Part shown: positions 3,676 through 52,178 of the stretch, piece after piece
How positions within the stretch are numbered: the first letter of the stretch is position 1
Layout of the letters: each line of letters starts with the position of its first letter
Source: Emcibacteraceae bacterium
Lineage (GTDB): Bacteria; Pseudomonadota; Alphaproteobacteria; Sphingomonadales; Emcibacteraceae
Reading direction: 5' to 3'
DNA length: 64,000 nucleotides
Assembly (NCBI GenBank): GCA_021774795.1
Contig: JAJFIR010000053.1
Location: forward strand, 310,001-374,000
Position numbers and translations under genes: made by a program
Notes under the pieces: generated by a model
What the model saw: only the letters and a program-made list of their open reading frames with translations
Told to the model about the DNA's origin: nothing
The model's database searches: none

Positions 3676-3691
3676 TGGCACGGTCCTTGCA
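3676..3691 (+). promoter_or_regulatory. Sigma-54 (RpoN) promoter
   Basis: TGGCACGGTCCTTGCA matches the -24/-12 consensus TGGCACG-N4-TTGCA exactly, with GG at 3677-3678 and GC at 3689-3690. The predicted transcript start is near 3702, leaving a leader of about 35 bases before the ATG at 3737. Its position decides the start of the downstream gene, because a TTG at 3635 would place codons upstream of the promoter. Confidence 0.85.
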
Positions 3692-29123: not shown

Positions 29124-29197
29124 ACTTCCTTTAAGCCATGTTTTTCAACTTATATAAAGGGTTAATTTTTTCCTGAAATAATAATATTACAATTAAT

Positions 29198-33521: not shown

Positions 33522-35756
33522 TTAAAATAATTGACCAATATTCAGGAATGCGGCTGTCGCTCCGTTTGATCCTACACCAATACCTAAATATGTTGGGCCC
33601 AGGATCGTATCAATTCCTACAAATACACTTGAACTCCATTTTAGATCGTTAACACTTATGTCTTCGCTGCGGTTCCACACATTTCCCACTTCAAGTGTTC
33701 CGCCGACATATATTGGCATTTCCGTAAGATATTGAGGACCACCTGAAATGCGCCGGTAATAAATGGCACCGACCACGCCACCATGGTTTCCGGTAAGCTG
33801 ACCGGGTGAAAACGCAGTAAGGTTTAGAAATCCGCCAAGAGGAAATAAGTTGGCTTCATCGGGCTTTCCGTTAAATGAAGTTACAAGAATAGTTCTTAAA
33901 GCCAGAGTATTTCTCCCCCAGCTAAAAGGCTTATAACTCGCCACTAGGATTGTATCGACACTGCTATCCCCATTTAAAATCGACATACTGTTTTCATATG
34001 TCACATCGAGATTTATACCGGACGTGGGAAACTGTACATTGTCCAATGTATCGACGCGAAATTCAGCGGTAAAAGTCGTAGCGTCAAACGGTATTTTTTC
34101 TGTATCAGGCAATCCGATACGCCCTTTGAAAGATCCGTGGATACGTTGTAATCCGGCACGCACCGTTCCCCAGTTACCAAGATTTCTACCACCACCAAGT
34201 CGAAATGCCAGAGCAGATATGCGCGTTTGTCCTAATATCGTTCCGCTATTGTCATCGCTTAGAATATTCCTGTTTACTTTTGTACCACTTGCATTTGCGA
34301 ATAGGTAATAATGTTCTTTATAATCTATAGGTTGGTATACTTCGGAGGTAAGGCTAAACTCTTGTCCGACTTTGAACAATGCCTGCCACTCACCGCCATA
34401 TTCATTTATTGCAAGGTTGGTAAATCCGGCGGCCATTTGAAACCCACTTTCCCCCTCAAAGTCTTCCTGTATAGCCAGACCGAAACGTAAGTAATCTTCG
34501 CCATCTTCACGCTGCCGTGTTCGTACTTCTATCCCTGTTTTTCCATTTTCTATTACAGTATTATAATTAACTTCTTCGAAAAGCTCTAAACCGTAAATCT
34601 CAGTTAAATCAGAAGATAGTTCCGCAGGGTCCAATTGATCTCCGGGCTTAAGTGTAAGGCGAGATTTAATTACTTCATCGGAAACATCGGATTTATTATC
34701 AATTTTTATAAAATCGATAATGGGCTGATCTTGTTTTTCCGGTGTGCGGGACGCTATATAAGTTTGCCATTCGTTTGATGATAACCTTAAAGACTGCATT
34801 TTTTCAAGCGCATTTGCAGCCGCTTCAAATCCTCTTGGAACGGCGGCGATGGCATTTTCAAAATCAACAAAGCCAACTTCATCTAAATCAGGCCGTATAA
34901 GAATGTCTTGATCGGTTAACGTGGCTAATTGCGCCGCAGAGGCTTTGTTACTTTGCAGCATGGTAAGTTGATCAATTACCGTTGCGAATGATGTAATTTC
35001 GTCTTTCTTTAAAAGCGGTGTACTGATGTCCACGACGATGACAATATCTGCGCCCATATCGCGGGCAACATTTATGGGAATGTTATTTGCGACACCGCCA
35101 TCCACCAGAAGTTTTCCATCCAGCTCGACCGGCGGAAATAAAGCTGGAACTGTCATGCTAGCCACCATGGCGGAAGCAAGAATACCTTCTTTTAAAATGA
35201 CTTCATTGCCGGTTTCAAGGTCGGTTGCGACCGCGCGAAAGGGTATGGCAAGATTATCGAAATCATCAACTTCTGTTATACTGTTTACCAAATCACCAAG
35301 CGTGAGCCGTAAATTATTTGGTGTGATCAGGCCGCTTGGAAGTTTAAGTTCACCATCTTCAAATCCGATTTTAAATTTAATCAAAAACCCATCGTCATCT
35401 TGTTTGCGACGATATGATTTATATCTTCTAGGGGCACTGTTGGATAATGTCTCCTGCCAGTCTATGTTTTGCAGAATGTCTTCCAGCTCAGTGGCATTAT
35501 ACCCGGCGGCATATAAACCACCGACAATGGCACCAAAGCTGGTTCCGGCGATCATATGTATTGGAATATTATTTTCCTCAAGTACTTTTAAAACGCCGAC
35601 ATGTGCGGCGCCGCGTGCGCCGCCACCAGAAAGAACGAGGCCGATTTTCGGTTTTTCTCCGTCATGAGTTTGTGCGAAAACTGCGCTATCATATTGGAGG
35701 GTAACGAAAAAAATTAAAACCAGCCGGAATATAAAAACAAACCGATTCAAAATCAT
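33522..35756 (-). CDS. Patatin-like phospholipase with POTRA and Omp85-type barrel (type Vd-like)
   Basis: 744 residues. A signal peptide of about 28 residues (ending SAVFA) is followed by a patatin domain (about 36-330). It has GLVLSGGGARGAAHVGVL as oxyanion motif, GTSFG with nucleophile Ser-73, and the catalytic DGG at 219-221 (VDGGVANNIPI). A POTRA-like segment (about 345-420, PIIDFIKIDNKSDVSD onward) leads to a C-terminal surface-antigen/Omp85 beta-barrel ending in NIGQLF. This order matches PlpD/FplA-type autotransporters, which carry a lipase through the outer membrane on their own barrel. Secretion of the patatin part is inferred; it might stay in the periplasm. The monocistronic gene ends at a strong terminator. 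Confidence 0.9.
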   Translation of the reverse strand: MILNRFVFIFRLVLIFFVTLQYDSAVFAQTHDGEKPKIGLVLSGGGARGAAHVGVLKVLEENNIPIHMIAGTSFGAIVGGLYAAGYNATELEDILQNIDWQETLSNSAPRRYKSYRRKQDDDGFLIKFKIGFEDGELKLPSGLITPNNLRLTLGDLVNSITEVDDFDNLAIPFRAVATDLETGNEVILKEGILASAMVASMTVPALFPPVELDGKLLVDGGVANNIPINVARDMGADIVIVVDISTPLLKKDEITSFATVIDQLTMLQSNKASAAQLATLTDQDILIRPDLDEVGFVDFENAIAAVPRGFEAAANALEKMQSLRLSSNEWQTYIASRTPEKQDQPIIDFIKIDNKSDVSDEVIKSRLTLKPGDQLDPAELSSDLTEIYGLELFEEVNYNTVIENGKTGIEVRTRQREDGEDYLRFGLAIQEDFEGESGFQMAAGFTNLAINEYGGEWQALFKVGQEFSLTSEVYQPIDYKEHYYLFANASGTKVNRNILSDDNSGTILGQTRISALAFRLGGGRNLGNWGTVRAGLQRIHGSFKGRIGLPDTEKIPFDATTFTAEFRVDTLDNVQFPTSGINLDVTYENSMSILNGDSSVDTILVASYKPFSWGRNTLALRTILVTSFNGKPDEANLFPLGGFLNLTAFSPGQLTGNHGGVVGAIYYRRISGGPQYLTEMPIYVGGTLEVGNVWNRSEDISVNDLKWSSSVFVGIDTILGPTYLGIGVGSNGATAAFLNIGQLF

Positions 35757-36107: not shown

Positions 36108-38513
36108 TCATTCATAATGTAGTGCATTGATTGGGTTGGTGCGTGCCACGTTATAGGCGTGCATTGCGACTGTTAGCCATGAAAGCATTAATCCACAAAG
36201 ACCAGCGACAAGCAGAAGTCCGTATGGTAGCCCAATTCTTTCTCCGAAAAATTCCAGATATGAATTCGACGCAAGATAAGCAAGTGCAAGAGCGAACGGT
36301 GTAGCCCAAAGAACCGGTTTGGAAAACTGCCAAATCAAGAGCGTAATAATTTGGTTACTGGTTGCACCGAGAACTTTACGAATGCCGATTTCTTTTGTGC
36401 GCTGCTCCGCCATGAACGCGGATAGACCAAACAGGCCAATGAGCGCAAGCACGAGAGAGAATATGGCAAATCCGGTTAAGGTTTTTGCGCTAAGATCAAA
36501 TAATCGATATGCTTCTTCAAAACGCTCATCAAGAAACCTCGCTTGAATTGGGTATTCAGGGATAATGCGTTTCCATGTTTCTTCAATTTCGCGTATCGTT
36601 TTAGGCGTCGCGCTGCTTGATAATTTGATGGATGCGTGTCGGTACCTTGATTGCTTCATCATAAAGGTAAAAGGCCTGATCTCACTTTGTAGTCCATAGA
36701 TGTTTTGATCTTTCACAACGCCGACCACGATGTAGGTTTCAAGTCCATCACTATCATCTTCAAAGAAAACTTTTCCAACTGCTTCTTGCGGCGACGCAAA
36801 CCCAAATTTGTCTGCGGCAAGCTCGTTAATTATCACATTGGTTTGAAATCTACCTTCAGCGTAGCTATCAAGGGCAATCTCGGTTGAAATATTTCTACCT
36901 GCAAGAAGTTCAACATCATAAATATTCAAATATTCTTGATCAATTCCCATTTCATTTATTGGCATAATAGATGATAAATCGGTTGAACTTTTTGAACCTC
37001 TAAACCTACTTGTATAGTCCTCAAAGGGTACTTGTGATGAGAAAGTAAAGTTGTCTACACCGTCAATAACAAGCATTTCATTTCTAATGGATTCGTGGTG
37101 ATTTTTAATTTCAACGACATCTAATCGATCCAGTATATATATTTGATCCTTTGCGAAAATTTTACTACTTTCTACCATGTTTTTGTTTTGAGTGAAGACC
37201 ACAGTAAGCATTGCGAGCATAAACACTGAAATAGTGAATTGAACGCCAATCATTATGCTTCTAACCCAGGTTGCCGACTTTTCTTTGCTTGGGCCATCCT
37301 TTAACGCATCAATAGGGTTGATTTTGGTGATTAAGTAGGATGGGTAGGCGCCTGATATTAATCCCACGACAATTGTGATTAATGCAATCTGCGGTAGCAT
37401 CGCCACGTAGTCAAGCGACATAACTTTGCCAGTTGCGTTATTGAAAAGCGGTATTAGTATTTCCAACGATGCAAGTGTCACAATCATCGCAAAGATAGTT
37501 AGGGTAATGCTTTCGATGACAAACTGCTGCAACAACTGCAAGGGTTGTGCTCCCAACGTTTTGCGAAGGCCGACTTCACGGACTCTACCCATAGATTGAG
37601 CCGTAGCTAAGTTAGCATAATTTAAGCACGCTATGACCAAGACTAGTTGTCCTAACGCGCTTATTATGACGATAGCCGGAATGCCGTAGTTATCCCAGAT
37701 AGCGGTGTTCGCTGCTATTAAAGGATAAACAAGAATTGACTTTACGTATTCTTTGGCATCTGAAGGATAATGTCTTTCGAAAATACCATTCATTTGAAGC
37801 TGCAGCCATTCTTGATTCAATGTGTTTGGCAACATCACATAAGTTACATCATGTCCCTGCATGCTTTGCCAATCTTTGTCAGGATCGTAATTTGTAACAT
37901 ATTCCATCATCTGTATTGGTACAAAAATCTCCAATGGCCTTCCATAGATACTTGAATTAAAGTGTGAATTCTTGGGAACATCATTAATTACCGCTCCAAT
38001 TTGCGCTGAGTGCCTATTATTAAGTGTAATAGTATGACCAAGAGGGTTCTCATCTTTGAAATATTTTTTTGCGATGGAGGCTGTAATCACTATATTTGAA
38101 CTATTGTTCAGAGCACTTTCATTTCCGTAAATAAACTCAAAGTTAAAAATTTCAAATAATTCCGGATCAGCAAACCTTAATGTCTGATAATAACTATTCT
38201 CGTCATATGTAACTAAAATTTCGCGTGTTTTAGTTCGGGCGATTGCATCTAATTCAGACAATTCAGCTTTTATAATAGGAGCGGCAGCGGAAAATATTAT
38301 GGGTAAATTATTACCGTCGATAATTTCAGAACGCAACGTATAAGTTCGATCGTGATTTTTAAACATTGTGCCATGGGAATGTTCATAATCAGATAAAAGG
38401 CCACCAAAGATGTAAAGTGCCAATCCCATGGATAAACCGATTATATTAATTACGGCATAAAGTTTGTTTCTCGCGATGTTGCGAAATGCGACTTTTATAT
38501 AGTTACTTAGCAT
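36108..38513 (-). CDS. FtsX/MacB-type ABC permease 4 of the exporter operon
   Basis: 801 residues. Two FtsX-type membrane modules: an N-terminal helix (NIIGLSMGLALYIFGGLL) plus extracytoplasmic MacB-PCD-like domain and three helices (from about 270), then a second copy of the same plan (helix near 425, domain, three helices at the C-terminus). Each module carries its ATPase-coupling stretch: VREVGLRKTLGA in the first, RTKEIGIRKVLGA in the second. It ends NPINALHYE, the family's C-terminus. It has no ATPase domain. By eye it is closest to permease 3 (same MGL-start, same DALKD/EALRD linker). It is the last gene of the six-gene minus-strand unit. Confidence 0.9.
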   Translation of the reverse strand: MLSNYIKVAFRNIARNKLYAVINIIGLSMGLALYIFGGLLSDYEHSHGTMFKNHDRTYTLRSEIIDGNNLPIIFSAAAPIIKAELSELDAIARTKTREILVTYDENSYYQTLRFADPELFEIFNFEFIYGNESALNNSSNIVITASIAKKYFKDENPLGHTITLNNRHSAQIGAVINDVPKNSHFNSSIYGRPLEIFVPIQMMEYVTNYDPDKDWQSMQGHDVTYVMLPNTLNQEWLQLQMNGIFERHYPSDAKEYVKSILVYPLIAANTAIWDNYGIPAIVIISALGQLVLVIACLNYANLATAQSMGRVREVGLRKTLGAQPLQLLQQFVIESITLTIFAMIVTLASLEILIPLFNNATGKVMSLDYVAMLPQIALITIVVGLISGAYPSYLITKINPIDALKDGPSKEKSATWVRSIMIGVQFTISVFMLAMLTVVFTQNKNMVESSKIFAKDQIYILDRLDVVEIKNHHESIRNEMLVIDGVDNFTFSSQVPFEDYTSRFRGSKSSTDLSSIMPINEMGIDQEYLNIYDVELLAGRNISTEIALDSYAEGRFQTNVIINELAADKFGFASPQEAVGKVFFEDDSDGLETYIVVGVVKDQNIYGLQSEIRPFTFMMKQSRYRHASIKLSSSATPKTIREIEETWKRIIPEYPIQARFLDERFEEAYRLFDLSAKTLTGFAIFSLVLALIGLFGLSAFMAEQRTKEIGIRKVLGATSNQIITLLIWQFSKPVLWATPFALALAYLASNSYLEFFGERIGLPYGLLLVAGLCGLMLSWLTVAMHAYNVARTNPINALHYE

Positions 38514-38533: not shown

Positions 38534-40960
38534 TTATTCATAATGAAGCGCATTAATCGGATTGGTTTTTGCGATGTTAAAAGCATGGGTAGCGACGGTT
38601 ACCCATGACAGAAGTAATCCACCAACGCCCGCGCCAATCAGCATACCGTAAGGCAGGCCAATACGTTCCGCAAAGAACTCGAGATAAGTACTTGATGCAA
38701 AGTAAGCCAGGCCGAGCGCAATGGGAGTTGCCCAAAGTACAGGTTTTGAAAATTGCCAGATTAGTAGCTTTAGGATTTGATTATTGCTGGCACCCAGAAC
38801 TTTCCTAATACCAATTTCTTTGGTTTTTTGTTCGGCCATGAATGCGGCAAGACCAAACAACCCGATTGACGCGAGAAAGAGAGCGAAAATAGCGAACGTA
38901 GCAAGCGATTTCGTTGCCATTTCGAATATTATATAAGTCGCTTGAAATGTTTCATCGAGAAATTTCCCCTGCATGGGGTAGTCTGGATATACATTTTCCC
39001 AAGCATCTTCTATATCTTGTACGACACTTGCGGGCGCATTTTGAGATATTTTAATGGATGCCAGACGGTAAGACGCGTCCCTCATGAAAAAGAAGAATGG
39101 CTTGACCACGTTAAATAAACCCAGAATATTTCGGTCGGCCATTACCCCAACAATAGTGTAGGTAGTGATGCCTCGTTCTCCTTCATCCTCATAAAAGACC
39201 TGCCCGATAGCGTCCTCAGCACTAGCAAAGCCCAGTTCCTTAACCGTCATCTCATTAACAAGTGTATTCACTGCCCCTCGTTCCCTTATGTGCGTATCCA
39301 TAGCGATATCACGGGATATGTTGCGACCAGCGACAATTGGAATGTCGTATGTATCCGCGAAATGATGATCGATGTTCAACTGATTGAATACAATGGTAGC
39401 ATCAAAGTCGTTTAATATTTTGGATGCATTGATGGTTGAGCTAGTTTGCTCGTATGGTACTTGGGAAGAAAAGGTAAAATCTTCCACATAAGGTATATTG
39501 AGTATTTCATTTCTTAAAACTTCATGACGATCTTCCATTTGCTCTACATTCAACCGGTCAAGCGTATAGATTTGATCTTTCGGAAATATATTGCTGCTTT
39601 CTTCCACCTGCTTGTTTTGTGCATAAACCACTAGAACAGAAGCCAATATGCTAACCGATAATGTAAACTGAAAGCCAATCATTGATGCGCGAACCCATGA
39701 TGCGGAACCGCCTTTTCGTGCGGTATCCCTTAGTGCTTCGATAGGATTGGTTTTTGTAATAAGGTAAGCGGGGTACGATCCGGCCAGAACACCAACAATT
39801 ATTGTGGTCATAAGCAGCCAAGGTAACGTGTCTATATAGTTCATCGCTAATATTTTCCCGGTTGCCGAATTAAACAAAGGGATAATCATCTCTAAAACGA
39901 CAAGCGCCAGTGCCATGGCAAAGAAAGTTATAGTTAGACTTTCAATAATAAATTGCGCCAACAGTTGAACGGGACCAGCACCAAGGGTTTTACGAAGACC
40001 CACTTCGCGGGCACGGCCCATGGATTGCGCAGTAGCGAGGTTTGTATAGTTTACGCAGGCTATTATCAGAACCATAAAACCCAATATTTCGACCACAGTG
40101 ATAACAGGAATGCCTAACATATCCCAAATGGCGGTGTTGGCATCAATCATCAAGCGAACAAGGAACCCGTCGAGAAGTTGCCTTTGGTCATCCGGTACAT
40201 GTCTTTCAAAAATACCGTCCATCTGCGTCTGTAGCCATTCTTGGTCAAGTGATATCGGCAATAAGACGTAGGTCAGATCACCCATAGATGTGTTGCCCCA
40301 ATTAGTGTCTGGAACGAAATCCGTAATGCGTTCCATCGCATTCATCGGTACGAGAATGTCAAGGGGTCTGCTCAGAATAATTTGCGAGTTAAAATGGGAA
40401 TTTGCGGGAAGATCTCTGATCTGCGCTGCGACTGTAAGGTCATGCTCATGATCAAGTGTTATTGTTTTTCCGATTGGATTTTCATCACCGAAATATTTCT
40501 TCGCTATGGTTTCGGTAATTACAATACCCGTTGAACTTTGTAACGCAGATTTATCACCATAAACAAATTCGAAATTAAAAATTTCCATTATTTCCGGATC
40601 AGCAAAACGCAGATTTTGATAATAGTTATCTTCGCCCACACTGATCAAAAACTCTCTTATTTTGGTTCTGGCTACATATTCAACTTCATTTAGCTCTGCC
40701 TTAATAAGAGGACCTACGGCACTTTGAACGCCGTCGATCTGGCCGACACCCACATTTGCATCTGAATTCACTTTGCCTCGGATAGTGTAAATTCTGTTAG
40801 AGTTTTCAAAAAATGCGTCGTGGGAATATTCGTAGTCCGCCAGTAATCCGCCAAATAAATATATTGCCAGTCCCATGGATAGTCCCAATATATTTATGGT
40901 GGCGTATAGCTTATTCTTGGCGATGCTTCTGATGGCTATTTTGATATAATTATTAAACAT
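38534..40960 (-). CDS. FtsX/MacB-type ABC permease 3 of the exporter operon
   Basis: 808 residues, two MacB/FtsX modules as in the neighbour. The coupling stretches are AREVGLRKTLGAG and KTKEIGIRKVLGAS. N-terminal helix INILGLSMGLAIYLFGGLLADYEYSH and C-terminus NPINALHYE are nearly those of permease 4, so the two probably arose by a fairly recent duplication. The large extracytoplasmic domains (about 45-270 and 450-680) diverge more than the helices, as expected if they contact different partners. The start is 21 bases from the end of permease 2. Confidence 0.9.
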   Translation of the reverse strand: MFNNYIKIAIRSIAKNKLYATINILGLSMGLAIYLFGGLLADYEYSHDAFFENSNRIYTIRGKVNSDANVGVGQIDGVQSAVGPLIKAELNEVEYVARTKIREFLISVGEDNYYQNLRFADPEIMEIFNFEFVYGDKSALQSSTGIVITETIAKKYFGDENPIGKTITLDHEHDLTVAAQIRDLPANSHFNSQIILSRPLDILVPMNAMERITDFVPDTNWGNTSMGDLTYVLLPISLDQEWLQTQMDGIFERHVPDDQRQLLDGFLVRLMIDANTAIWDMLGIPVITVVEILGFMVLIIACVNYTNLATAQSMGRAREVGLRKTLGAGPVQLLAQFIIESLTITFFAMALALVVLEMIIPLFNSATGKILAMNYIDTLPWLLMTTIIVGVLAGSYPAYLITKTNPIEALRDTARKGGSASWVRASMIGFQFTLSVSILASVLVVYAQNKQVEESSNIFPKDQIYTLDRLNVEQMEDRHEVLRNEILNIPYVEDFTFSSQVPYEQTSSTINASKILNDFDATIVFNQLNIDHHFADTYDIPIVAGRNISRDIAMDTHIRERGAVNTLVNEMTVKELGFASAEDAIGQVFYEDEGERGITTYTIVGVMADRNILGLFNVVKPFFFFMRDASYRLASIKISQNAPASVVQDIEDAWENVYPDYPMQGKFLDETFQATYIIFEMATKSLATFAIFALFLASIGLFGLAAFMAEQKTKEIGIRKVLGASNNQILKLLIWQFSKPVLWATPIALGLAYFASSTYLEFFAERIGLPYGMLIGAGVGGLLLSWVTVATHAFNIAKTNPINALHYE

Positions 40961-40981: not shown

Positions 40982-43447
40982 TTATTCGCTTTTAAGGGAG
41001 TAAATAGGGTTAATACGCGCTGCGGTCCATGCGCGGGCGGATGTTGTTGCGTATGCTAGAAAGAATGCAATAGTGCCTGCAACAATATAAGGTGCAAGGC
41101 TCATATCAATGCGGTAACTAAAGCCGGACAACCAGCCATCCATCATGAGCCAAGCTACTGGCCAAGCAACGACATTAGCGATGATTACAAGTTTGGACAG
41201 TTCCCAGGAAAGCAACATAACGATGTTCATTACAGATGCTCCAAGGACCTTTCGAATGCCGATTTCTTTGGTGCGACGGTCGGCGATAAAACTCGCGAGA
41301 CCATATAGTCCGATACACGCAATCATCGCTGCCAAGCCGGCAAAACCGATGAACATTCGAAATACACGGCCTTCAACAGCGTAAAATGACGCATAGTCTT
41401 CTTTTAGAAAAGTGCGGCGGATTGGATAAGAGGGTACATGTTGTTGCCATACGTTATCTATCAATTCAATAGCGTCATTAATGTTTCCTTTTTTAACTTT
41501 TACGACCATTACTTTCTGATTATCGCCAAGGCCGAAAGAAAGTGATGCTGGTTCGGATCTAACCGAACTGAAGTGCGCGTCTTCTACGACGCCAACGATG
41601 GTTGAATCAATTCTGTAATCGGTGTTGCCAAAGGAAAATGCGGCGTATACTTGCTGGCCAATGGCTTCTGCGGGATCGTTCCATCCTACTTGTTTTGCTG
41701 CTGTTTCATTTATGACCATGCCACCCGTCACGTGTGGGTTTTCCGGCGAAAATTGCGGGGTTCTATCGGCGGCGAATTCGTCACTTAGTGGACGTCCCGC
41801 GACCATCTTCATTCCCAGCGTGTCGAAATATCCATCATCTGCTGTTATCAGACGCGTGATAAGTTGAAAATCCGGACCTTCACCTTCTTTTGAAAATGAT
41901 GCACCGTCCGATAGGTCCCATGTGGGAATGATAGAACCGGCAGATACATTATCTATGAAAGGGCTGTTTTTTAACTGATCATGCATGGTGCGATATGCGT
42001 TACGAGCTTCACCGTTGTTTAAGCGAACAGCGATTACATTTTCTGGTTCATATCCAAGTGGTTTGTTAAGGGCAAAATCAATTTGATTATTCACGATGCC
42101 GGTGGCCGACATTAATCCAATGGCTATTGAAAATTGCAATACGACGAGCCCGGCTCTTAGTTTCGCAGAACCAATTCCGTCAAATGCTCCGCCGCGAATT
42201 GCTTTTGCAGGAAGGACACCAGACACAAATAAGGCGGGATAAAGCCCTGAGAGAATACCAACCAGTAGTGTCGTGAGAATTAAACCTAATCCGAATTCCG
42301 CTGTATATATTTGATCTGCGGAAAGCGGAACACCCAACATCGAACCAAAAAATGGGGCAAACATCTCGACGATCACCAGTGAAGTTATTAAAGCGATGAT
42401 CGCCATTACCGTCGATTCAATGATGAACTGGCTGGCAACATTATGCCGCTTTGCACCAAGAACTTTTCTAATGCCGACTTCTTTAACCCGGTTGCTTGAT
42501 TGCGCTATCTGCATGTTAATAAAGTTAAAAGTGGCGATGACGAGCGTCAGCAATGCAACAAATCCAAAAATAGAAACGTCTGATCGTTGTCTATGGGGTT
42601 TTGAAAGTCCGGTTATAGTGTCCCTTACACTCATTTCATTTTGTAATTCTGTCATGAAATGTATGTCAGCCAACGGCTGTAAGTAAATATTGATATTTCC
42701 CCCATATTCTTTATCAACATTATTAATTACATAATTCAGGGCTTTTGTTTCAAACTCCGTGGCAGATACATTTGGTGCCAATTTCACATAATGATAGAGC
42801 TGGTCGGAAAAGTTACGTTCCCAAATTGCCGGATCATTCCAGATCACAGGCAGCATTTCCATGTTGATAAAGATGTTGGAGACTTGGTGGCTATCGCTTT
42901 TGTTATTTTCTATTATGGCAGTGACTTGAAAATCATGCTCACCGTCGAGTGTGAATATTTTGCCTATAGCGTCTTCACCGGGAAATAGTGTTGCTGCGGC
43001 TATTTTAGTAAGAACGGCATTATTTAGGTTTATTAAAGAAGACGAAGGGGAACCGGTCTCAAACTTATAAGGAAACATTTCAAAGAAGTTTTCATCCACA
43101 AAGCTGATCGTTTGATACTGTTTTTCATCACCAATGTTTAAAAGTCGTTCGGATAGAGTAATTCGGGTTACCATTTCTACATCGTCGGGGTGCGCGTCAG
43201 CCAATATCGGCGATAAAGGATTAAAGAATGTTGCAAAGCGCGCTCCCGTTTGATCACTTTCCCAATTTAGGCGGTAGACACGTTCGCTATCTGGCACCAC
43301 TTTATCAAATCCAGTTTCATGGCTTACAAACAGGACAATTAGCACGCAAACCGAAAGCCCAACGGCAAGGCCGACAATATTGATTGTGCTATAAAGGCGG
43401 TGTTTAATAATACTGCGTAGAGCCATTCCTATGTGGTTGAGTAACAT
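40982..43447 (-). CDS. FtsX/MacB-type ABC permease 2 of the exporter operon
   Basis: 821 residues, two-module MacB/FtsX layout. The N-terminal helix is INIVGLAVGLSVCVLIVLFVSHE. Coupling stretches are VKEVGIRKVLGAKRHN and RTKEIGIRKVLGASVMN. It ends NPIYSLKSE, unlike the INALxYE ends of the other three, so it is the most divergent copy at the C-terminus. Its start is 9 bases from the stop of permease 1, a close translational spacing. The periplasmic domains are the least like the others by eye. Confidence 0.9.
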   Translation of the reverse strand: MLLNHIGMALRSIIKHRLYSTINIVGLAVGLSVCVLIVLFVSHETGFDKVVPDSERVYRLNWESDQTGARFATFFNPLSPILADAHPDDVEMVTRITLSERLLNIGDEKQYQTISFVDENFFEMFPYKFETGSPSSSLINLNNAVLTKIAAATLFPGEDAIGKIFTLDGEHDFQVTAIIENNKSDSHQVSNIFINMEMLPVIWNDPAIWERNFSDQLYHYVKLAPNVSATEFETKALNYVINNVDKEYGGNINIYLQPLADIHFMTELQNEMSVRDTITGLSKPHRQRSDVSIFGFVALLTLVIATFNFINMQIAQSSNRVKEVGIRKVLGAKRHNVASQFIIESTVMAIIALITSLVIVEMFAPFFGSMLGVPLSADQIYTAEFGLGLILTTLLVGILSGLYPALFVSGVLPAKAIRGGAFDGIGSAKLRAGLVVLQFSIAIGLMSATGIVNNQIDFALNKPLGYEPENVIAVRLNNGEARNAYRTMHDQLKNSPFIDNVSAGSIIPTWDLSDGASFSKEGEGPDFQLITRLITADDGYFDTLGMKMVAGRPLSDEFAADRTPQFSPENPHVTGGMVINETAAKQVGWNDPAEAIGQQVYAAFSFGNTDYRIDSTIVGVVEDAHFSSVRSEPASLSFGLGDNQKVMVVKVKKGNINDAIELIDNVWQQHVPSYPIRRTFLKEDYASFYAVEGRVFRMFIGFAGLAAMIACIGLYGLASFIADRRTKEIGIRKVLGASVMNIVMLLSWELSKLVIIANVVAWPVAWLMMDGWLSGFSYRIDMSLAPYIVAGTIAFFLAYATTSARAWTAARINPIYSLKSE

Positions 43448-43456
43448 GATTTTCTC

Positions 43457-45931
43457 CTATTCATATCTTAAAGCATTAATTGGGTTGGTATTTGCGACAC
43501 GAATACTGTTGCTGGCAACAGTCGCCCATGCGATGAGCAGCGCCGCTACACCTGCTGCAAGACAAAATCCGAGGATGAAAAAACTTTCAATTCGGTAAGC
43601 GAAACTTTCCAGCCACATGGTCATGGTATAGTAAGATACTGGCCACGCGATGAGGTTGGCGATTAGGACTGGCTTGGAGAACTGCCAGACGAGCAATTTA
43701 ACAACATCGAAAACGCTGGCACCCATCACTTTGCGAATACCGATTTCTTTAGTACGCCGTTCGGCTGTAAAGCTCGCTAAACCATATAGGCCAAGACAGG
43801 CAATAAATATTGCAAGGCTGGAAAATGCAGCAAACATGGTCATTTCCCCCTGTTCTGCCTTATACTGTTTATCAACGGAATCGACAGCATGATCATAGGT
43901 AAAGGGGATGCTTGGAACTTCCCGTTCCCATAGTTCGCGGGCCAAATTGACTGTTTCCAGCGGATCTCCACTATAACGAATTGAAATATATTGAGCGTGA
44001 TCAGGTTGAAGTTCAAATATTTCCGGCCGTATTTCTTTCTTTAAGCTGTTCAAATGAATATCGGGCACTACGCCGATGATTAAATGTTCGCGTTCAAGGT
44101 TTTCACCTTCGTTGCCGACACTGCGATACAGAATTTTACCCAAGGCTTCTTCAGGTGTTCCCAGACCAAGACGCCTTAGTCCGGTTTCATTGATAATAAG
44201 GGAACTTGCGTGACCACGACCTTCTCTAATTTCGATGGTCTCAGCGCGTGTGTCATTTTGACTAATGCCGTAAAATCTGCCGGAAAGAAGATCGATATTA
44301 TATGTTTTAAAATATTCATATCCAACACCGCGAACGCCAATAAGACTACTTTCGCTACTGGGCATTTCTGGGGTTCGCATTGAAGTGTTGTTTTCTGTAT
44401 GAATTCCCGGAGCATCATTTGACCAAGTGACGCTTGAAATATTAGGCATCTGGCGGAATTCATTAACTAATAAGGCGAGTTTTATATCTGCTGCGTCACG
44501 ATAAAGATTATTGATAACAAGTAAGTTATTCTGCTCGAAGCCAAGTTTTATATTTTTGGCATATAGCATTTGCCCGTAGACAACGGTGGTTGAAACAAAA
44601 AGTGAGATTGAAGCCGCAAACTGGAAAATTACCAGTGCAGCCCTTAATTTAACGGATGCACTGGTTTCTGCCGACTTGTTTGCCTTAAGAACATCAGCGG
44701 GTCTGAAGCTTGATAATATAAATGCTGGATAAATTCCTCCTAATATCCCTACTGTTGCTGATAATCCAACAATCATTAGCAAGTCGGAAGAACCATAATC
44801 AATTGACAATTGTTTTCCGATAATTTGATTGTAACTCGGTAATGCAAGTTCGACAAATGCCATTGAAACCAGTAGTGCAAACAGTGTGAGGAACACTGAT
44901 TCACCGATAAATTGTGCAACCAGTTTTTGTCTTGAGGCACCCATAACTTTTCGTAAGCTAACTTCTTTTGCTCTTTGGCTTGCACGCGCTGTGCTTAAAT
45001 TCATGAAATTAATACTTGCGATAATCAGAATAAGCGCCGCTACCGCTGAAAAAATGAGCACAGTCGTTATGCTTCCTTTTTCCCGGTGCTCACTATTTCC
45101 GGGTGCTTTTAAATGCAATTCTTCAATATTTTGCGAATTAAGTTCGACAAAGCCTGATACGGCATCACCGCTATCCTGAAGTGGGAAATTTCGGTCTATA
45201 AAAGAGGGCATTTGAGCATTTACGTCTTTAATGTTTGTACCGGGATTTACAGAATAATAAAGATGGGTGTTTACCGAAAACCAGCTGGCGAACATCCATT
45301 CAAGTTCCGACCATTCTTCTTCCACAATTGACACCATTGCGGCTACATTGACCTGGCTGTTTTCCGGCATATTTTCCATTATTGCGGCGACCGTGAATTC
45401 ACGTTCGAAAGCGTCGGCATTAATCGTTAGCGTCTGGCCAATGGCGTTTCCCTGTGGAAAGTATTTATCTGCCAACGTTTTATTTAGGATTAAACTGCTT
45501 TGGTCATCCAGTGCTTTTCCCAAATTCCCGGTTATAGTTTTGAAGTCGAAAATTTTCACAAATGCCGGATCAACTAAACTTATCTGTTCTTCAAAATATT
45601 GATCACCTTTTATAATTGTGGCTCGTTTCCGTGCGACCCTTGCGGCATGTTGAATTTGCGGGAAATCTTTTTTAATTACATGAATAATAGGGCCAGCCAC
45701 CATTGAAAATACCATCGGTGGGCGACCAGAAGGCAAAAAAGTCATATGCATGCGGTAAATATTTTGGGAATTAGCCCAGAAATTATCGTAATTTATTTCA
45801 TGACGAACGAATAGAGTAATTAGCATTACAGCGGCTAACCCGATGGCCAGCCCTAGTATGTTAATCGCACTAAACAACTTATGACGGATTATATTACGCC
45901 ATGCGCTTAAGATATAATTTGTAAGTAACAT
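43457..45931 (-). CDS. FtsX/MacB-type ABC permease 1 of the exporter operon
   Basis: 824 residues, first of four permeases, just after the ATPase gene. It has two MacB/FtsX modules. The N-terminal helix is INILGLAIGLAAVMLITLFVRHE, coupling stretches are AKEVSLRKVMGASRQK and RTKEIGIRKVMGASVFD, and the end is NPINALRYE. The ABC family it belongs to (MacB relatives whose ATPase is a separate protein) works as a mechanical transmitter through the periplasm, often without moving the substrate through the membrane itself. What it acts on is unknown. Confidence 0.9.
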   Translation of the reverse strand: MLLTNYILSAWRNIIRHKLFSAINILGLAIGLAAVMLITLFVRHEINYDNFWANSQNIYRMHMTFLPSGRPPMVFSMVAGPIIHVIKKDFPQIQHAARVARKRATIIKGDQYFEEQISLVDPAFVKIFDFKTITGNLGKALDDQSSLILNKTLADKYFPQGNAIGQTLTINADAFEREFTVAAIMENMPENSQVNVAAMVSIVEEEWSELEWMFASWFSVNTHLYYSVNPGTNIKDVNAQMPSFIDRNFPLQDSGDAVSGFVELNSQNIEELHLKAPGNSEHREKGSITTVLIFSAVAALILIIASINFMNLSTARASQRAKEVSLRKVMGASRQKLVAQFIGESVFLTLFALLVSMAFVELALPSYNQIIGKQLSIDYGSSDLLMIVGLSATVGILGGIYPAFILSSFRPADVLKANKSAETSASVKLRAALVIFQFAASISLFVSTTVVYGQMLYAKNIKLGFEQNNLLVINNLYRDAADIKLALLVNEFRQMPNISSVTWSNDAPGIHTENNTSMRTPEMPSSESSLIGVRGVGYEYFKTYNIDLLSGRFYGISQNDTRAETIEIREGRGHASSLIINETGLRRLGLGTPEEALGKILYRSVGNEGENLEREHLIIGVVPDIHLNSLKKEIRPEIFELQPDHAQYISIRYSGDPLETVNLARELWEREVPSIPFTYDHAVDSVDKQYKAEQGEMTMFAAFSSLAIFIACLGLYGLASFTAERRTKEIGIRKVMGASVFDVVKLLVWQFSKPVLIANLIAWPVSYYTMTMWLESFAYRIESFFILGFCLAAGVAALLIAWATVASNSIRVANTNPINALRYE

Positions 45932-45975: not shown

Positions 45976-46653
45976 TTATGCACGCATGCTTTCAGTTACG
46001 ACGTGACCATCAAGTAAATTAATTGTTCGCCGCGCATAATCGGCATGTGACGGACTATGGGTAACCATAACAATCGTTGTGCCTTCTTCATTTAATTTTT
46101 GAAGCATTCCCATTACTTCCTGGCCGTGGGCCGTATCCAGGTTGCCGGTTGGCTCATCGGCAAGGATCATACTTTGATTGCCGACAACGGCGCGGGCTAC
46201 GGCAACGCGTTGCTGTTGACCGCCGGAAAGTTGGCTAGGCATATGTTTTGCGCGGTGGGCGATCCCAACTTTATCCATAACTGTGGCTACTCGTTCTTTG
46301 CGTTCACTCGCCGGAATATCGTGGTATAGAAGGGCAAGTTCAATATTTTCAGCAACAGAGAGCTCATCAATAAGATTGAAACTTTGGAAGATAAAACCAA
46401 TATGTTGTTTTCTGATTACGCCCAGTTGTGCTTCAGAATATCCTGCAACGTCTTCGTTTTTAAAATAATAATGGCCACTCGTGGGTGTATCAAGCATACC
46501 TACGATATTAAGAAGAGTTGATTTACCGCAACCTGAAGGCCCCATTATGGCAACAAACTCACCATGATCGATTTCAATATTGACATTATTTAATGCCACC
46601 GTCTCCACTTCATCAGTACGGTATGCTTTTGTAAGGTCTTGTAATTTTAGCAT
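45976..46653 (-). CDS. MacB/LolD-type ABC transporter ATPase
   Basis: 225 residues, a stand-alone nucleotide-binding domain. Walker A is GPSGCGKST, the Q-loop is in FIFQSFNLI, the signature is LSGGQQQRVAVARA, Walker B is MILADEPTGNLD, and the switch His is in VMVTHSP. MacB/LolD subfamily features include the LNNVNIEIDHGEFVAIMGPSG start and the FQSFNLIDEL loop. It is the only ATPase in the operon and so presumably drives all four permeases. It starts 31 bases after the adaptor stop. Confidence 0.95.
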   Translation of the reverse strand: MLKLQDLTKAYRTDEVETVALNNVNIEIDHGEFVAIMGPSGCGKSTLLNIVGMLDTPTSGHYYFKNEDVAGYSEAQLGVIRKQHIGFIFQSFNLIDELSVAENIELALLYHDIPASERKERVATVMDKVGIAHRAKHMPSQLSGGQQQRVAVARAVVGNQSMILADEPTGNLDTAHGQEVMGMLQKLNEEGTTIVMVTHSPSHADYARRTINLLDGHVVTESMRA

Positions 46654-46684: not shown

Positions 46685-48034
46685 TTATTCTTGAGTTAGC
46701 TTAAGGCGATCCATGTCCATAAAGCTCGTATATGGAGAGGTGACAACCCGCTCGCCAATTTCGAGACCTTCGACCACTTCTATGAAATTATTATTTTTAC
46801 GGCCAAGTTTAATGTTGCGTTTGACGGCGAATGTACCGTCATCGCTGACAACAAATATCCAGCTACCGCCAGTATCCTGGTAGAATGCACCATTTGGTAT
46901 GAGAAGTGCTTCAGCGGAATCACCCAAAGTCAATTTCGACTGTAAAGTTTGCCCGCGGCGGATGTCCTCTGGCTGCTCTTCCGTGAATACCATGTCGATT
47001 TTAAACTGATTATTTTGGACATCGGGATAGATTTTTTTAATCCGCATATTAAACTCTTCACCATCGCCCGGGCGCACATAAACTCCTGTTTGACCAAGGT
47101 CGACGCGATTTAAATAAAATTCGTCGATATTAACTTCCATTTTAAAATTATAAGGATCATCAATTTGGCCAATTGCCGTTCCCCGACCAACTGTCTGGCC
47201 AAGCTCCAAGTCAAAGCCGGAAAGCTGCCCTTCAATTTGCGCTTTCATATTAAGATTATCGAGACTGGTGCGGGCAATTTCTAGGTTGCGAGCAAGGTTT
47301 GCGCTATCAAGTTTGGACAGTTCAAGCTGTTGTTCCTGCATGCGAGCATCTGTTTCCTGAGATTGAATGGTAATTTCTCTCAATTTTATTTTATAAGCGA
47401 GATCTTCTTCCGCTTCATCCAGTTGGGTTTTCGTAAAATTACCTCTTTCAAATAAAGTTCTATATCGTCCTACATTGCGCGTTAGTTTTTGGATGTCGTA
47501 ATCAAGCGTTGTGATATTTGTAATATGACGAAGGCGGTTCTGCTCAAGTTGAAGTTCCAGAGTACGCATCGCGTTTAACTCACCGGCAACACGCGCTTCA
47601 TTTTCAAATACATTTAGCTGTAATGTTGGGTTTGATAACTCGACTATGGGCTGGCCTTGTTTAACAATGGTTCCGTCTTCTACTAATATTTTTTCAACAC
47701 GACCTCCTTCGGTTGCTGACACAAATACAGTGGTAAGCGGGGTAACTTTCCCGCGGATAGGAATATAATCTTCATAAATGCCGCTACTCACGGTGGATAC
47801 CACCAAGCGACTTTCCTCAACACGAAAAGTGCGACCGCCAGAAGCACTTTCAATTATGAGATAAAGCACTATGACGATTGCAATACCTCCAGCGCCCCAA
47901 AATGCCATTTTAAAGGGGCTTCTCTTTTTTTCAATTTTACGGTCCATGCCCACACCAGCGTGGGCACCTTCTGGCTTATTATGGTCGGTCTTATTATGGT
48001 TATTATCCGTCATCATCTTGTTCATTTTAATCAC
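46685..48034 (-). CDS. HlyD/MacA-type periplasmic adaptor of the exporter operon
   Basis: 449 residues with a GTG at 48034; an ATG at 48025 would shorten it by three residues, and neither has a strong ribosome-binding site. A cytoplasmic His/Asn-rich tail (about 1-43) precedes one transmembrane helix (about 45-64, FWGAGGIAIVIVLYLIIES). Next come a lipoyl/barrel-sandwich half, a long alpha-helical hairpin (about 135-265, rich in Glu/Leu/Arg), a second half (QIEGQLSGFDLELGQTVGRG), and a beta-barrel. It links the inner-membrane permeases to the outer membrane. No TolC gene is present in the window. It is the first gene after the sigma-54 promoter. Confidence 0.9.
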   Translation of the reverse strand: MIKMNKMMTDNNHNKTDHNKPEGAHAGVGMDRKIEKKRSPFKMAFWGAGGIAIVIVLYLIIESASGGRTFRVEESRLVVSTVSSGIYEDYIPIRGKVTPLTTVFVSATEGGRVEKILVEDGTIVKQGQPIVELSNPTLQLNVFENEARVAGELNAMRTLELQLEQNRLRHITNITTLDYDIQKLTRNVGRYRTLFERGNFTKTQLDEAEEDLAYKIKLREITIQSQETDARMQEQQLELSKLDSANLARNLEIARTSLDNLNMKAQIEGQLSGFDLELGQTVGRGTAIGQIDDPYNFKMEVNIDEFYLNRVDLGQTGVYVRPGDGEEFNMRIKKIYPDVQNNQFKIDMVFTEEQPEDIRRGQTLQSKLTLGDSAEALLIPNGAFYQDTGGSWIFVVSDDGTFAVKRNIKLGRKNNNFIEVVEGLEIGERVVTSPYTSFMDMDRLKLTQE

Positions 48035-48070
48035 AAAGCTCGTTGGTTATCATCACTGTTTTATATATGA

Positions 48071-48085
48071 GCAAAGAACGTGCCA
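48071..48085 (-). promoter_or_regulatory. Sigma-54 promoter of the exporter operon
   Basis: On the minus strand the sequence reads TGGCACGTTCTTTGC, an exact match to TGGCACG-N4-TTGC. The predicted transcript start is near 48059, 25 to 34 bases before the adaptor start. The adjacent divergent gene encodes an NtrC-type activator, the protein class required to open this promoter. Confidence 0.88.
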
Positions 48086-48121
48086 ATAATTAAATTGTTC
48101 ATTATCAACCATTTAATGCTT

Positions 48122-48164
48122 TACTGTTCGAAAACGAACAGTATATACTGTTCATTAATGAACA
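48122..48164. promoter_or_regulatory. Two palindromic activator sites between exporter and NtrC-type gene
   Basis: Site 1 (48122-48143) has perfect 9-base arms TACTGTTCG and CGAACAGTA around AAAA. Site 2 (48149-48164) is the perfect 16-base palindrome TGTTCATTAATGAACA. Both share TGTTC/GAACA, and their centres are 24 bases apart. They lie about 73 and 97 bases upstream of the predicted exporter start and about 45-85 bases before the response-regulator ATG. Degenerate further copies are seen at 48096 and near 48178. They fit upstream activating sequences for the adjacent response regulator. Confidence 0.65.
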
Positions 48165-48207
48165 CTTGTGTGCGATATTGAACATTAAGTAATTATAGGA
48201 TTTATAG

Positions 48208-49632
48208 ATGGATAAACAGGGTTCTATACTCATTGTAGACGATGACGAAGACATCCTTGTCGCGGGAAAATTATTATTAAAACGGCATTTTTCAAACGTG
48301 GTGACAGTTGCTGATCCCGATCAAATATCTCGTTTATTAAAGGAGGGGGCATTTGACGCTATACTGCTTGATATGAATTTTGGCCCCGGACAAAGTTCGG
48401 GGGACGAAGGTTTTTACTGGCTATCGGAAATAATGAAAACTGATCCTGAAGCGGTTGTTATAATGATCACAGCCCATGGTGGGGTAAATGTGGCTGTGGA
48501 AGCTATGAAATTAGGGGCTACTGATTTTGTTTCAAAGCCATGGCAGAATGAAAAAGTCGTTGCCACATTATCGGCAGCAGTAAAACTTAGAAAAACAAGA
48601 TTTGAAGCAGCAAATCTTAGGCAGGCAAACCGAACGTTAGTCGAAGCGAGCAGTCCACAAAACCATCAGAAAATCATCGGAAAATCGGACGCGTTGAAAT
48701 CTATACAAACGATGATCCAGCGTGCTGCGCCTACTGATGCAAATGTTTTAATCATCGGTGAAAATGGTACGGGTAAGGAGTTGGTCGCACGTGAATTGCA
48801 CCGTCTTTCTAAAAGAAGCAACGAGATATTTTTAAGTGTCGATATGGGGGGGATAAATGAAAGTTTGTTTGATAGTGAACTTTTTGGTCATAAAAAAGGA
48901 TCTTTTACCGATGCCAAAGATAATCGGGTAGGACGCCTTCAAGCAGCATCCGGCGGTACCTTATTTTTGGATGAAATTGGAAACTTGCCACTTCATTTGC
49001 AAGCAAAACTTTTAACGGTTCTTGAACAAAGAAAAATAACGCCCGTTGGTGCAAACCAATCGATCGATATCAATGTCAGGGTCGTTGCTGCTACAAACCT
49101 TACGCAAAAACAGCTTAAAGATGAAAGCCGTTTCAGGCAGGACTTACTTTTTAGACTTAATACGGTTGAGGTTGAAGTGCCACCATTGCGTGACAGGGCG
49201 GAAGATATTGAAGAAATAGCAAATCACTATATTCAGTTTTATTGTAAAAAGTACGATAAACCGAAAAAAAAACTTCATGATGATGCGCTATCTGCAATTA
49301 AGTCTTATGAGTGGCCAGGCAATGTTCGTGCACTGCGTCATGCTATCGAAAGGGCTGTAATATTAAGTCAGGGCGTCACTTTGACGCCTACTGACTTTGC
49401 ACTGGAAAGTCATCCTGCTCGGGCTGGAGAAATGGAGCAGAAGTTAATCATTAAGACTGATGGCAACGAAGAAATTCACCTTCCCGAAGGAAGTTTGAAT
49501 TTGGAAAACATGGAACAAGCATTGATTGAGCGGTCTTTAAAAAAGCATAGATATAATATTTCACACGCGGCGAAAGAACTTGGTTTAACGCGCGCAGCCC
49601 TATATAGAAGGATGGAGAAATATGGGTTTTAG
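48208..49632 (+). CDS. NtrC-family sigma-54-dependent response regulator
   Basis: 474 residues. Receiver domain (about 5-125) with acidic pocket IVDDDED, phosphoacceptor Asp-55 (AILLDMNF), Thr-88 and Lys-110. An AAA+ domain follows (about 155-390) with Walker A GENGTGKE (184-191), sigma-54 contact loop GSFTDA (231-236) in place of GAFTGA, and Walker B TLFLDEIGNL. A Fis-type helix-turn-helix closes the protein (ISHAAKELGLTRAALYRRM). It activates sigma-54 promoters; the divergent exporter promoter with nearby palindromes is the likely target. The ATG of the kinase gene overlaps its stop by 11 bases. Confidence 0.95.
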   Translation: MDKQGSILIVDDDEDILVAGKLLLKRHFSNVVTVADPDQISRLLKEGAFDAILLDMNFGPGQSSGDEGFYWLSEIMKTDPEAVVIMITAHGGVNVAVEAMKLGATDFVSKPWQNEKVVATLSAAVKLRKTRFEAANLRQANRTLVEASSPQNHQKIIGKSDALKSIQTMIQRAAPTDANVLIIGENGTGKELVARELHRLSKRSNEIFLSVDMGGINESLFDSELFGHKKGSFTDAKDNRVGRLQAASGGTLFLDEIGNLPLHLQAKLLTVLEQRKITPVGANQSIDINVRVVAATNLTQKQLKDESRFRQDLLFRLNTVEVEVPPLRDRAEDIEEIANHYIQFYCKKYDKPKKKLHDDALSAIKSYEWPGNVRALRHAIERAVILSQGVTLTPTDFALESHPARAGEMEQKLIIKTDGNEEIHLPEGSLNLENMEQALIERSLKKHRYNISHAAKELGLTRAALYRRMEKYGF

Positions 49633-50989: not shown

Positions 50990-51724
50990 TTGTCATCAAG
51001 TGCAGTTCATTTTAAAAACATATCTAAGAAATATGGCGATGTTACCGTCCTGGATAACATTAATCTTAAAATTGCAGATAATGAAACAACAGCATTAGTT
51101 GGGGAAAGCGGAAGCGGAAAAACCACGTTACTACAGATCGTAAATGGTCTTACGCTACCTAGCGGTGGAACAGTTGAAATTTTTAGTGAAGAAATAGATT
51201 ACGAAAATTTACCTGACTTAAGAAAAAAAATGGGATACGCCGTTCAAGGTGCCGGCTTGTTTCCACACATGACGGTTTTTGAAAATATCACCGTCATGGC
51301 AAAATTGGCGCGGTGGTCGGACGACGAAATTAACGAACGTGCCAATTATGTGGTTGAGCTTGTAGATTTGATGAAAGAATTATTGGACCGGTTCCCACAT
51401 AATCTGTCTGGTGGTCAACAACAAAGAGTAAGTTTGTGTCGGGCAATGATGTTAAATCCGCCATTGTTGTTGCTGGATGAACCTTTTTCGGCACTTGATC
51501 CCATCACAAAAAAATATATCCATTCAGAATTTGAGAAATTGCAACGCGCGGAATCCAGAGCAATTTTGTTAGTCACTCACGATATGGAGGAGGCGGTTAA
51601 GCTAGCAGAAAATATTGTTATTCTTAAAGATGGCGAGATTGTTCAATCTGGTGAAACCGTTGAAATAGTAAGAAATCCGCGAAATGACTATGTAAAAGGA
51701 TTGCTGTTGGGAATTGCAGAATAA
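50990..51724 (+). CDS. ABC importer ATPase, quaternary amine/osmoprotectant type
   Basis: 244 residues. The start is a TTG at 50990, 15 bases after the kinase stop. Walker A is GESGSGKT, Q-loop VQGAGLFPHMTV, signature LSGGQQQRVSLCRA, Walker B LLLLDEPFSALDP, and the switch VTHDMEEA. The MTVFENI and PHMT features place it with OpuBA/ProV-like ATPases of the QAT family. Unlike many ProV proteins it has no C-terminal CBS domains. Its presumed partner is the fused binding protein-permease at 54438. It might also belong in the same transcript as the two-component genes. Confidence 0.88.
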   Translation: MSSSAVHFKNISKKYGDVTVLDNINLKIADNETTALVGESGSGKTTLLQIVNGLTLPSGGTVEIFSEEIDYENLPDLRKKMGYAVQGAGLFPHMTVFENITVMAKLARWSDDEINERANYVVELVDLMKELLDRFPHNLSGGQQQRVSLCRAMMLNPPLLLLDEPFSALDPITKKYIHSEFEKLQRAESRAILLVTHDMEEAVKLAENIVILKDGEIVQSGETVEIVRNPRNDYVKGLLLGIAE

Positions 51725-51725
51725 A

Positions 51726-52178
51726 TTATACAGAGCTAAGCAAGATACTTGTTTCGCTGTTTAGTATGCCATCGATGATGCGAACTTCCCTTAATACACG
51801 ATCGAAATCACTTAAGCTGGTCGTCTGAATTTCAGCTACAAGGTCCCACGCGCCATTTGTTGTATGCAGTGTTTTAAGTTCTGGCATACCACGCAATTTT
51901 TTTATGACTTGAGTTGTCGATTTTCCAACCACCTCAACCATCATTAAAGCGCGAATTGAATCGTGCTCATAATCTTTACGAACGCGAACGGTAAAACCAT
52001 GAAGCGTACCGGAATCGAGTAAACGATCCAGACGATTTTGTACTGTTCCACGCGATACATTTAATATATCGGCGAGTTTTGATAGAGGTGCCCGCCCGTC
52101 GTTTCGCAATAGCGCTATTAATTCACGATCCAGCGGATCATACATGTATTTGGGAAATTCATTTTTATTCTTAATCAT
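51726..52178 (-). CDS. Lrp/AsnC family transcriptional regulator
   Basis: 150 residues. N-terminal helix-turn-helix (about 12-70, LDRELIALLRNDGRAPLSKLA and SRGTVQNRLDRLLDSGTL), then the RAM (Lrp effector) domain (about 75-150) with VEVVGKSTTQVIKKLRGMPEL and TTNGAWDLVAEIQT. It binds DNA as a multimer in response to amino acids. It lies tail-to-tail with the ATPase gene and divergently to the ornithine cyclodeaminase gene, so it is likely to control the latter. An alternative ATG 11 codons in (MYDPLDRE) is possible. It is not paired to a known target beyond context. Confidence 0.92.
   Translation of the reverse strand: MIKNKNEFPKYMYDPLDRELIALLRNDGRAPLSKLADILNVSRGTVQNRLDRLLDSGTLHGFTVRVRKDYEHDSIRALMMVEVVGKSTTQVIKKLRGMPELKTLHTTNGAWDLVAEIQTTSLSDFDRVLREVRIIDGILNSETSILLSSV

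Follow-up and report, generated by a model that had tools for sequence, protein, structure and literature searches.

Predicted sigma-54 enhancer arrays connect an NtrC-type two-component system with a four-permease exporter operon and a wider regulon

What switches on a four-permease exporter operon whose first gene stands head to head with the gene of an NtrC-type response regulator? The operon lies in a 64,000-nucleotide stretch of a marine Emcibacteraceae bacterium (contig JAJFIR010000053.1, positions 310,001 to 374,000; hereafter the window), where a gap of 173 bp separates the genes for a periplasmic adaptor and the regulator. An earlier sequence-only reading of this gap proposed a complete circuit of kinase, regulator, enhancer sites, sigma-54 promoter and exporter, and that circuit is supported by its conservation across alpha- and gammaproteobacteria and by the co-occurrence of regulator and site array in genomes. 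Our main reading, to which we give a probability of about 0.9, is that an NtrC-type two-component system acts through an array of sites at a sigma-54 promoter to drive the exporter operon, probably tolC, and, in relatives, orphan permeases.

Using the sequence of the gap, we were able to place the promoter and its upstream sites (Table 1). The earlier promoter claim holds exactly: GCAAAGAACGTGCCA reads TGGCACGTTCTTTGC on the minus strand, a -24/-12 element of the form TGGCACG-N4-TTGC that is aimed at the adaptor gene. From its position the transcript is predicted to start near 48060, which puts the centres of the two previously noticed TGTTC/GAACA palindromes about 73 and 97 bp away, as had been stated. 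Both palindromes are exact; however, the window array has three sites, the third of which had been overlooked. Each site is 16 bp long, with centre spacings of 24 and 20 bp. Also overlooked was an exact match to WATCAANNNNTTR between the sites and the promoter, a sequence that we take to be the consensus of integration host factor (IHF) and on which the naming of that box rests. The adaptor gene starts with a GTG at 48034, with a possible in-frame ATG at 48025.

Could such a control region arise by chance? On its own the promoter match counts for little because the window contains a second exact TGGCACG-N4-TTGC and, with one mismatch allowed, 3 matches to the -24/-12 pattern versus 1.21 expected, and we rejected it as proof on these grounds. 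The second exact match (TGGCACGGTCCTTGC, 3676-3690, plus strand) is followed after about 60 nt by an ATG (3737), the start of a 155-residue frame without a Pfam match, and probably marks another sigma-54-dependent gene. Single TGTTC-N6-GAACA palindromes occur at 7 places in the 3.93-Mb genome (reversed control, 0); the five found elsewhere in the genome stand singly, and the 2.7-3.0 kb around each contains no sigma-54 match. The strict paired array (TGTNCN6GNACA-N3..9-TGTNCN6GNACA) is present at the window locus only in the whole genome and gives 0 in the reversed control; a weaker array before tolC in the same genome falls below this pattern. It is the paired array, not the promoter or the single palindromes, that decides against chance.

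Is this arrangement conserved? A search with the regulator gave 80 loci, two of them from Bacteroidota and the others from marine alpha- and gammaproteobacteria. At 65 of these, the adaptor, ATPase and permease genes share a strand opposite to that of the kinase, with regulator and kinase facing the exporter; among the other 15, 11 end at a contig end, L048, L051 and L077 are without a recognisable adaptor, and L093 is without exporter genes. The set of regions upstream of the regulator comprises the window and 77 loci (n = 78; L083, L087 and L090 have no upstream DNA). Three sites are present in 17 regions, two in 56, one in 4 and none in 1, giving at least two in 73/78, versus 0.037 sites per region in the shuffled control. 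The sites almost always have the same orientation, and their logo is TGTWCG-N4-YGRACA; as the family consensus, TGTWCG-N4-YGAACA displaces the TGTTC-N6-GAACA of the sequence-only reading. A strict sigma-54 match was found on the exporter strand in 51/78 regions and on the opposite strand in 0/78. Using a looser score with weights that we set ourselves from the general consensus (maximum 22.2), 55/76 regions reached at least 19 (0.1% of shuffles) and 75/76 at least 16 (3.2% of shuffles), with L044 (too short) and L092 (no site) left out.

The geometry of the sites is also constant. Site starts cluster at -55, -68, -79, -89 and -100 relative to the T of TGG, and with the proximal site excluded their positions are phased to a helical period of ~10.5-11 bp (R = 0.81, n = 150), for which a formal p-value has little meaning because the sequences are related. 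Between the sites and the promoter, an exact IHF-consensus match is present at 21 of 110 promoters versus 0.8% of shuffles, and a match with one mismatch at 81 of 110 versus 17%, where the control is simple single-base shuffling and the consensus is the one that we took for IHF. We observe what is looked for in the target of an enhancer-binding protein, a -24/-12 promoter with tandem sites upstream of it.

The array also tracks the regulator across genomes. We compared the window genome with those of 79 relatives; in 40 of these 80 genomes the regulator was called at E ≤ 1e-100. The strict paired array was found in 36 of the 40 genomes with the regulator versus 0 of the 40 without it (Fisher 2.5e-18, phylogeny ignored), and in none of the 80 reversed controls. 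The four exceptions (G085, G097, G117 and G121) have weaker, degenerate sites at the expected place with sigma-54 scores of 21.2-22.2, and a second regulator in G064, 41% identical, has no such sites. The G121 locus (L176) additionally carries, 366-442 nt upstream of the regulator, a further sigma-54 site (score 22.2) together with two sites that have one and two mismatches, possibly a duplicated control region. Altogether, sequence comparison establishes the sites, their fixed geometry, their targets and their co-occurrence with the regulator.

This co-occurrence bears on whether the sites could belong to some other DNA-binding protein, such as the Lrp/AsnC-type protein encoded at 51726-52178 or a repressor, with a different activator serving the sigma-54 promoter. 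The palindromes by themselves name no protein, and the genome encodes eight strong Sigma54_activat proteins that offer other activators. However, the array follows this regulator in the genome comparison, and its geometry behind sigma-54 promoters fits the needs of an enhancer-binding protein. Only the nearest relatives have an Lrp gene close by, and gammaproteobacterial loci keep the array without one, so the Lrp gene was set aside as the array reader. We regard a different reader as highly improbable.

The switch had been described as dedicated to one exporter operon. This is not what we find: the genome's own tolC and the orphan permeases of relatives have a similar control region, and a regulator serving only the exporter operon in its genome was dropped once tolC was seen to carry one. 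Before tolC in the window genome (product 76% identical to a relative's TolC) are three relaxed sites, one strict and two starting with C, followed by the sigma-54 site TGGCATAATTATTGCT, 225 nt before the start codon. The exporter and tolC appear to share one switch in this genome.

Kordiimonas and relatives of the window's genus also carry arrays away from the regulator locus. There are at least 42 of them, those among the matches listed (33 from a 45-genome scan without L061-L095, and 9 held-out from the 80-genome scan). All 42, including 9/9 of the held-out arrays, are flanked on one side only by a sigma-54 site scoring at least 19, with gaps of 39, 51-52, 61-64 or 71-72 bp. Of these arrays, 31 have a permease gene ahead (two are contig-edge fragments) and 6 have tolC (one cut by the stretch end); the other five face a PlsC-like acyltransferase (3, Kordiimonas), an S41 peptidase (L116) or a contig end (L111). 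The orphan permeases are of the MacB/FtsX type with ~800 residues, and no open reading frame in the 42 stretches matches the window ATPases or adaptor at E ≤ 1e-3. An array precedes 3/3 orphan permease units in G005 and 5/6 in G004, and permeases inside operons in these two genomes have no array of their own. On sequence evidence, this is a regulon rather than a single-operon switch.

Could the array mainly autoregulate the response-regulator gene, with exporter activation secondary or absent? Such a role would fit the window sites, which are 24-83 nt upstream of the regulator start codon. However, no strict sigma-54 match points toward the regulator gene in any of the 78 upstream regions, and all 42 listed off-locus arrays stand at enhancer distance from a sigma-54 site in stretches with no same-family regulator gene (weak kinase matches in two). 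Autoregulation as the main function is thus very unlikely, and the two functions may coexist.

Besides permeases and tolC, two other kinds of gene lie ahead of arrays. In Kordiimonas (L128, L129 and L130) the PlsC-like acyltransferase is 0.7-0.8 kb on, with a short basic open reading frame between. These frames encode 39, 31 and 32 residues with arginine-rich tails, lie 100-140 nt after the promoter behind a AGCGAGGAGA ribosome-binding site, and are possible small-protein members of the regulon. At L116 the array and sigma-54 site lie 93 nt before the gene of the S41-family peptidase, which has a signal-like N-terminus and is the sole non-export target seen.

The earlier claim of a kinase without a periplasmic domain is borne out by a structural model (mean predicted local distance difference test, pLDDT, 81), because its N-terminal helices, 2-29 and 34-70, are joined by a four-residue turn. 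The window genome has rpoN (PF04963, 166 bits). Across 79 homologues of the regulator, the sigma-54 contact loop is GAFTGA in 44, GAFTDA in 19, GSFTDA in 9 and otherwise in 7.

Several observations weigh against the two-component, sigma-54 reading. The window regulator has the loop GSFTDA, which departs from the canonical GAFTGA, so its contact with sigma-54 is only presumed. In its genome tolC is the sole second target recognised, and through relaxed matching, while in G004 the orphan permease unit L143 is without an array. Twenty loci distant from the alphaproteobacteria, chiefly Colwellia relatives, have weak -24/-12 boxes like TGGAACGATTATTGG with scores of 16.3-18.8, although their promoter-to-site spacing is unchanged. 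The two Bacteroidota loci have one site and no site, leaving the code unsupported there. Additionally, the loci and genomes are related (for example the one-clade loci of the L046-L095 type), such that the counts are not independent, and the author-set sigma-54 weights and IHF consensus noted above belong on the same side.

Table 1. Features of the control region, exporter operon and two-component system in the window.
Feature	Position	Strand	Basis
Sigma-54 (-24/-12) promoter of exporter operon, TGGCACG-TTCT-TTGC	48071-48085	-	Sequence read
IHF-like box TATCAACCATTTA	48103-48115	+	Between enhancer sites and promoter; exact consensus match
Enhancer site 1 (promoter-proximal) TGTTCGAAAACGAACA	48125-48140	+	Exact palindrome, predicted site
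Enhancer site 2 TGTTCATTAATGAACA	48149-48164	+	Exact palindrome, predicted site
Enhancer site 3 TGTGCGATATTGAACA	48169-48184	+	Predicted site; same position in close relatives
Periplasmic adaptor (HlyD/MacA-like), first operon gene	46685-48034	-	PF16576, PF13437, TIGR01730 over cut-off; DarC model below
ABC (ATP-binding cassette) ATPase (MacB/LolD/DarD-like)	45976-46653	-	PF00005; DarD model 273 bits, cut-off 375
Permease 1, two MacB_PCD/FtsX halves in one chain	43457-45931	-	Profile search; 8 transmembrane helices in model
Permease 2, paralogue of permease 1	40982-43447	-	Profile and protein search
Permease 3, paralogue of permease 1	38534-40960	-	Profile and protein search
Permease 4, paralogue of permease 1	36108-38513	-	Profile and protein search
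NtrC-type response regulator (receiver, AAA+, Fis-type helix-turn-helix; sigma-54 loop GSFTDA)	48208-49632	+	PF00072, PF00158, PF02954 over cut-off
Histidine kinase, two membrane helices	49622-50974	+	Weak PAS match; H-box HEIMNSITP

The exporter has four permeases, as had been read, encoded by paralogous genes that follow those of the adaptor and ATPase. They are 801-824 residues long, each with two MacB_PCD and/or FtsX halves. The model of permease 1 (mean pLDDT 85, predicted template modelling score 0.76) has eight long membrane helices and two periplasmic domains, and its best fold matches are YbbAP, MacB, LolCDE and BceAB, a MacB_PCD plus FtsX permease fold that places it in the MacB class (type VII). 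With permease 1 as query, only the four operon permeases were found among the window genome proteins. Among the core operons examined, those of gammaproteobacteria have one permease (L167-L170) or two (L166) and that of K. marina has four (L171), which suggests a permease expansion in alphaproteobacteria.

How does this exporter compare with known ones? As in MacAB-TolC, there is an adaptor, an ATPase, a MacB_PCD/FtsX permease and a tolC gene, here under the same type of control region, and the permease 1 model matches MacB structures. Unlike in MacAB-TolC, the ATPase and permease are separate genes, the fused MacB model giving permease 1 only 45.9 bits (cut-off 966), and the permeases are internally duplicated and four per operon. 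The ADOP duplicated permeases (TIGR03434), a family of acidobacterial origin, likewise have ~800 residues and two FtsX/MacB halves and occur as orphans without an ATPase gene; the four window permeases score 231-295 bits, below the cut-off of 622.3, and here, unlike in ADOP, the core ATPase/adaptor operon has the same control region as the orphans.

The best equivalog matches of the ATPase and adaptor are to the darobactin exporter DarBCD, which raises the question of whether the exporter secretes an endogenous peptide rather than answering envelope or antimicrobial stress. The short basic frames behind the three Kordiimonas arrays fit such a role, as do the DarD and DarC scores. However, all Dar models stay under their cut-offs (273, 195 and 151 bits versus 375, 450 and 700), no darobactin or other peptide-maturation gene was recognised among the scanned proteins beside the operon, and many permeases on one switch fit several substrates better than one. 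We consider peptide secretion unlikely, though less so than the two alternatives above.

The regulatory side resembles NtrC, ZraR, GlrR and PrsR, which share the receiver-AAA+-Fis architecture, an adjoining kinase gene, tandem upstream sites, a -24/-12 promoter and a likely IHF site between. The best scores among NtrC-family equivalogs in NCBIfam are 363.8 bits for PrsR and 335.7 for NtrC, both under the cut-offs. Unlike in these systems, the targets here are type VII ABC permeases and TolC, and the loop is GSFTDA. The BceAB/BceRS systems of Firmicutes likewise pair a two-helix kinase without an extracytoplasmic domain with a type VII ABC transporter, and BceB structures are among the fold matches of permease 1. 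The BceRS regulator is OmpR-type, whereas the window has an NtrC-type regulator with sigma-54, a periplasmic adaptor and TolC, and transporter-coupled sensing is here only proposed.

In the mechanism that we propose, the kinase would most likely respond to a signal from the envelope, sensed within the membrane or via the transporter, and the phosphorylated regulator would assemble on the three-site array (48125-48184). IHF-type bending would then loop it onto RNA polymerase-sigma-54, opening the promoter and switching on the adaptor-ATPase-four-permease operon (48034 to 36108). Co-activation of tolC, which is probable, would complete a tripartite type VII (MacB-class) exporter with a putative role in envelope defence or export. 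In relatives the orphan duplicated permeases would also be activated and would then need an ATPase and adaptor, most simply those of the core operon.

We extend this tentatively, and with more doubt than confidence, to the idea that one chassis of a single ATPase, adaptor and TolC serves interchangeable duplicated permeases linked by the enhancer/sigma-54 code rather than by gene order, each orphan adding a substrate or sensor specificity, while the kinase reads transporter activity. If true, this would explain the source of ATPase for orphan duplicated permeases and give Bce flux sensing a Gram-negative counterpart coupled to sigma-54. The two-component, sigma-54 reading itself would supply a readable enhancer code for finding exporter-regulon members across Alpha- and Gammaproteobacteria, and would link permeases that lack an adjoining ATPase gene with a particular ATPase, adaptor and outer-membrane channel. 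The system allows two questions to be posed directly, whether one ATPase can serve many permeases and whether transporter-coupled kinases exist outside the Firmicutes.

The sequence-only reading held that this is not a routinely named system, which is fair; however, part of the link has been published. Predicted sigma-54 promoters are enriched at COG0577 permeases in Gammaproteobacteria, Opitutia and Bacteroidia, a link presented there as the first (PMC12316311, PLoS One 2025). The accessible portions of that paper name no enhancer site or cognate regulator, have 0 occurrences of TolC and do not list Alphaproteobacteria for COG0577. In PMC3162934, a term search matched none of ABC, efflux, permease and exporter. 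We found no literature describing the regulator, its sites or the tolC/permease regulon in a search whose coverage lies outside preprints and most subscription papers. Relative to the portions of PMC12316311 considered, the enhancer code, the cognate regulator and TolC as a target are additions, and with them a statistical association of sigma-54 with FtsX-type permeases at class level would become a defined circuit in which regulator, sites and targets are named.

The neighbourhood contains other genes. A second ABC ATPase (50990-51724) was rejected as an exporter part, because it scores best as a glycine-betaine-type ATPase and has an OpuAC-permease protein encoded downstream of it. An anti-phage library gave only generic AAA/ATPase matches. 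The two adjoining paralogues at 27216-31153 (minus strand) each combine TPR repeats and a Trans_reg_C DNA-binding domain. At 33522-35756 (minus strand), immediately downstream of the exporter genes, a patatin phospholipase is fused to a POTRA/Omp85 barrel, a type Vd-like autotransporter.
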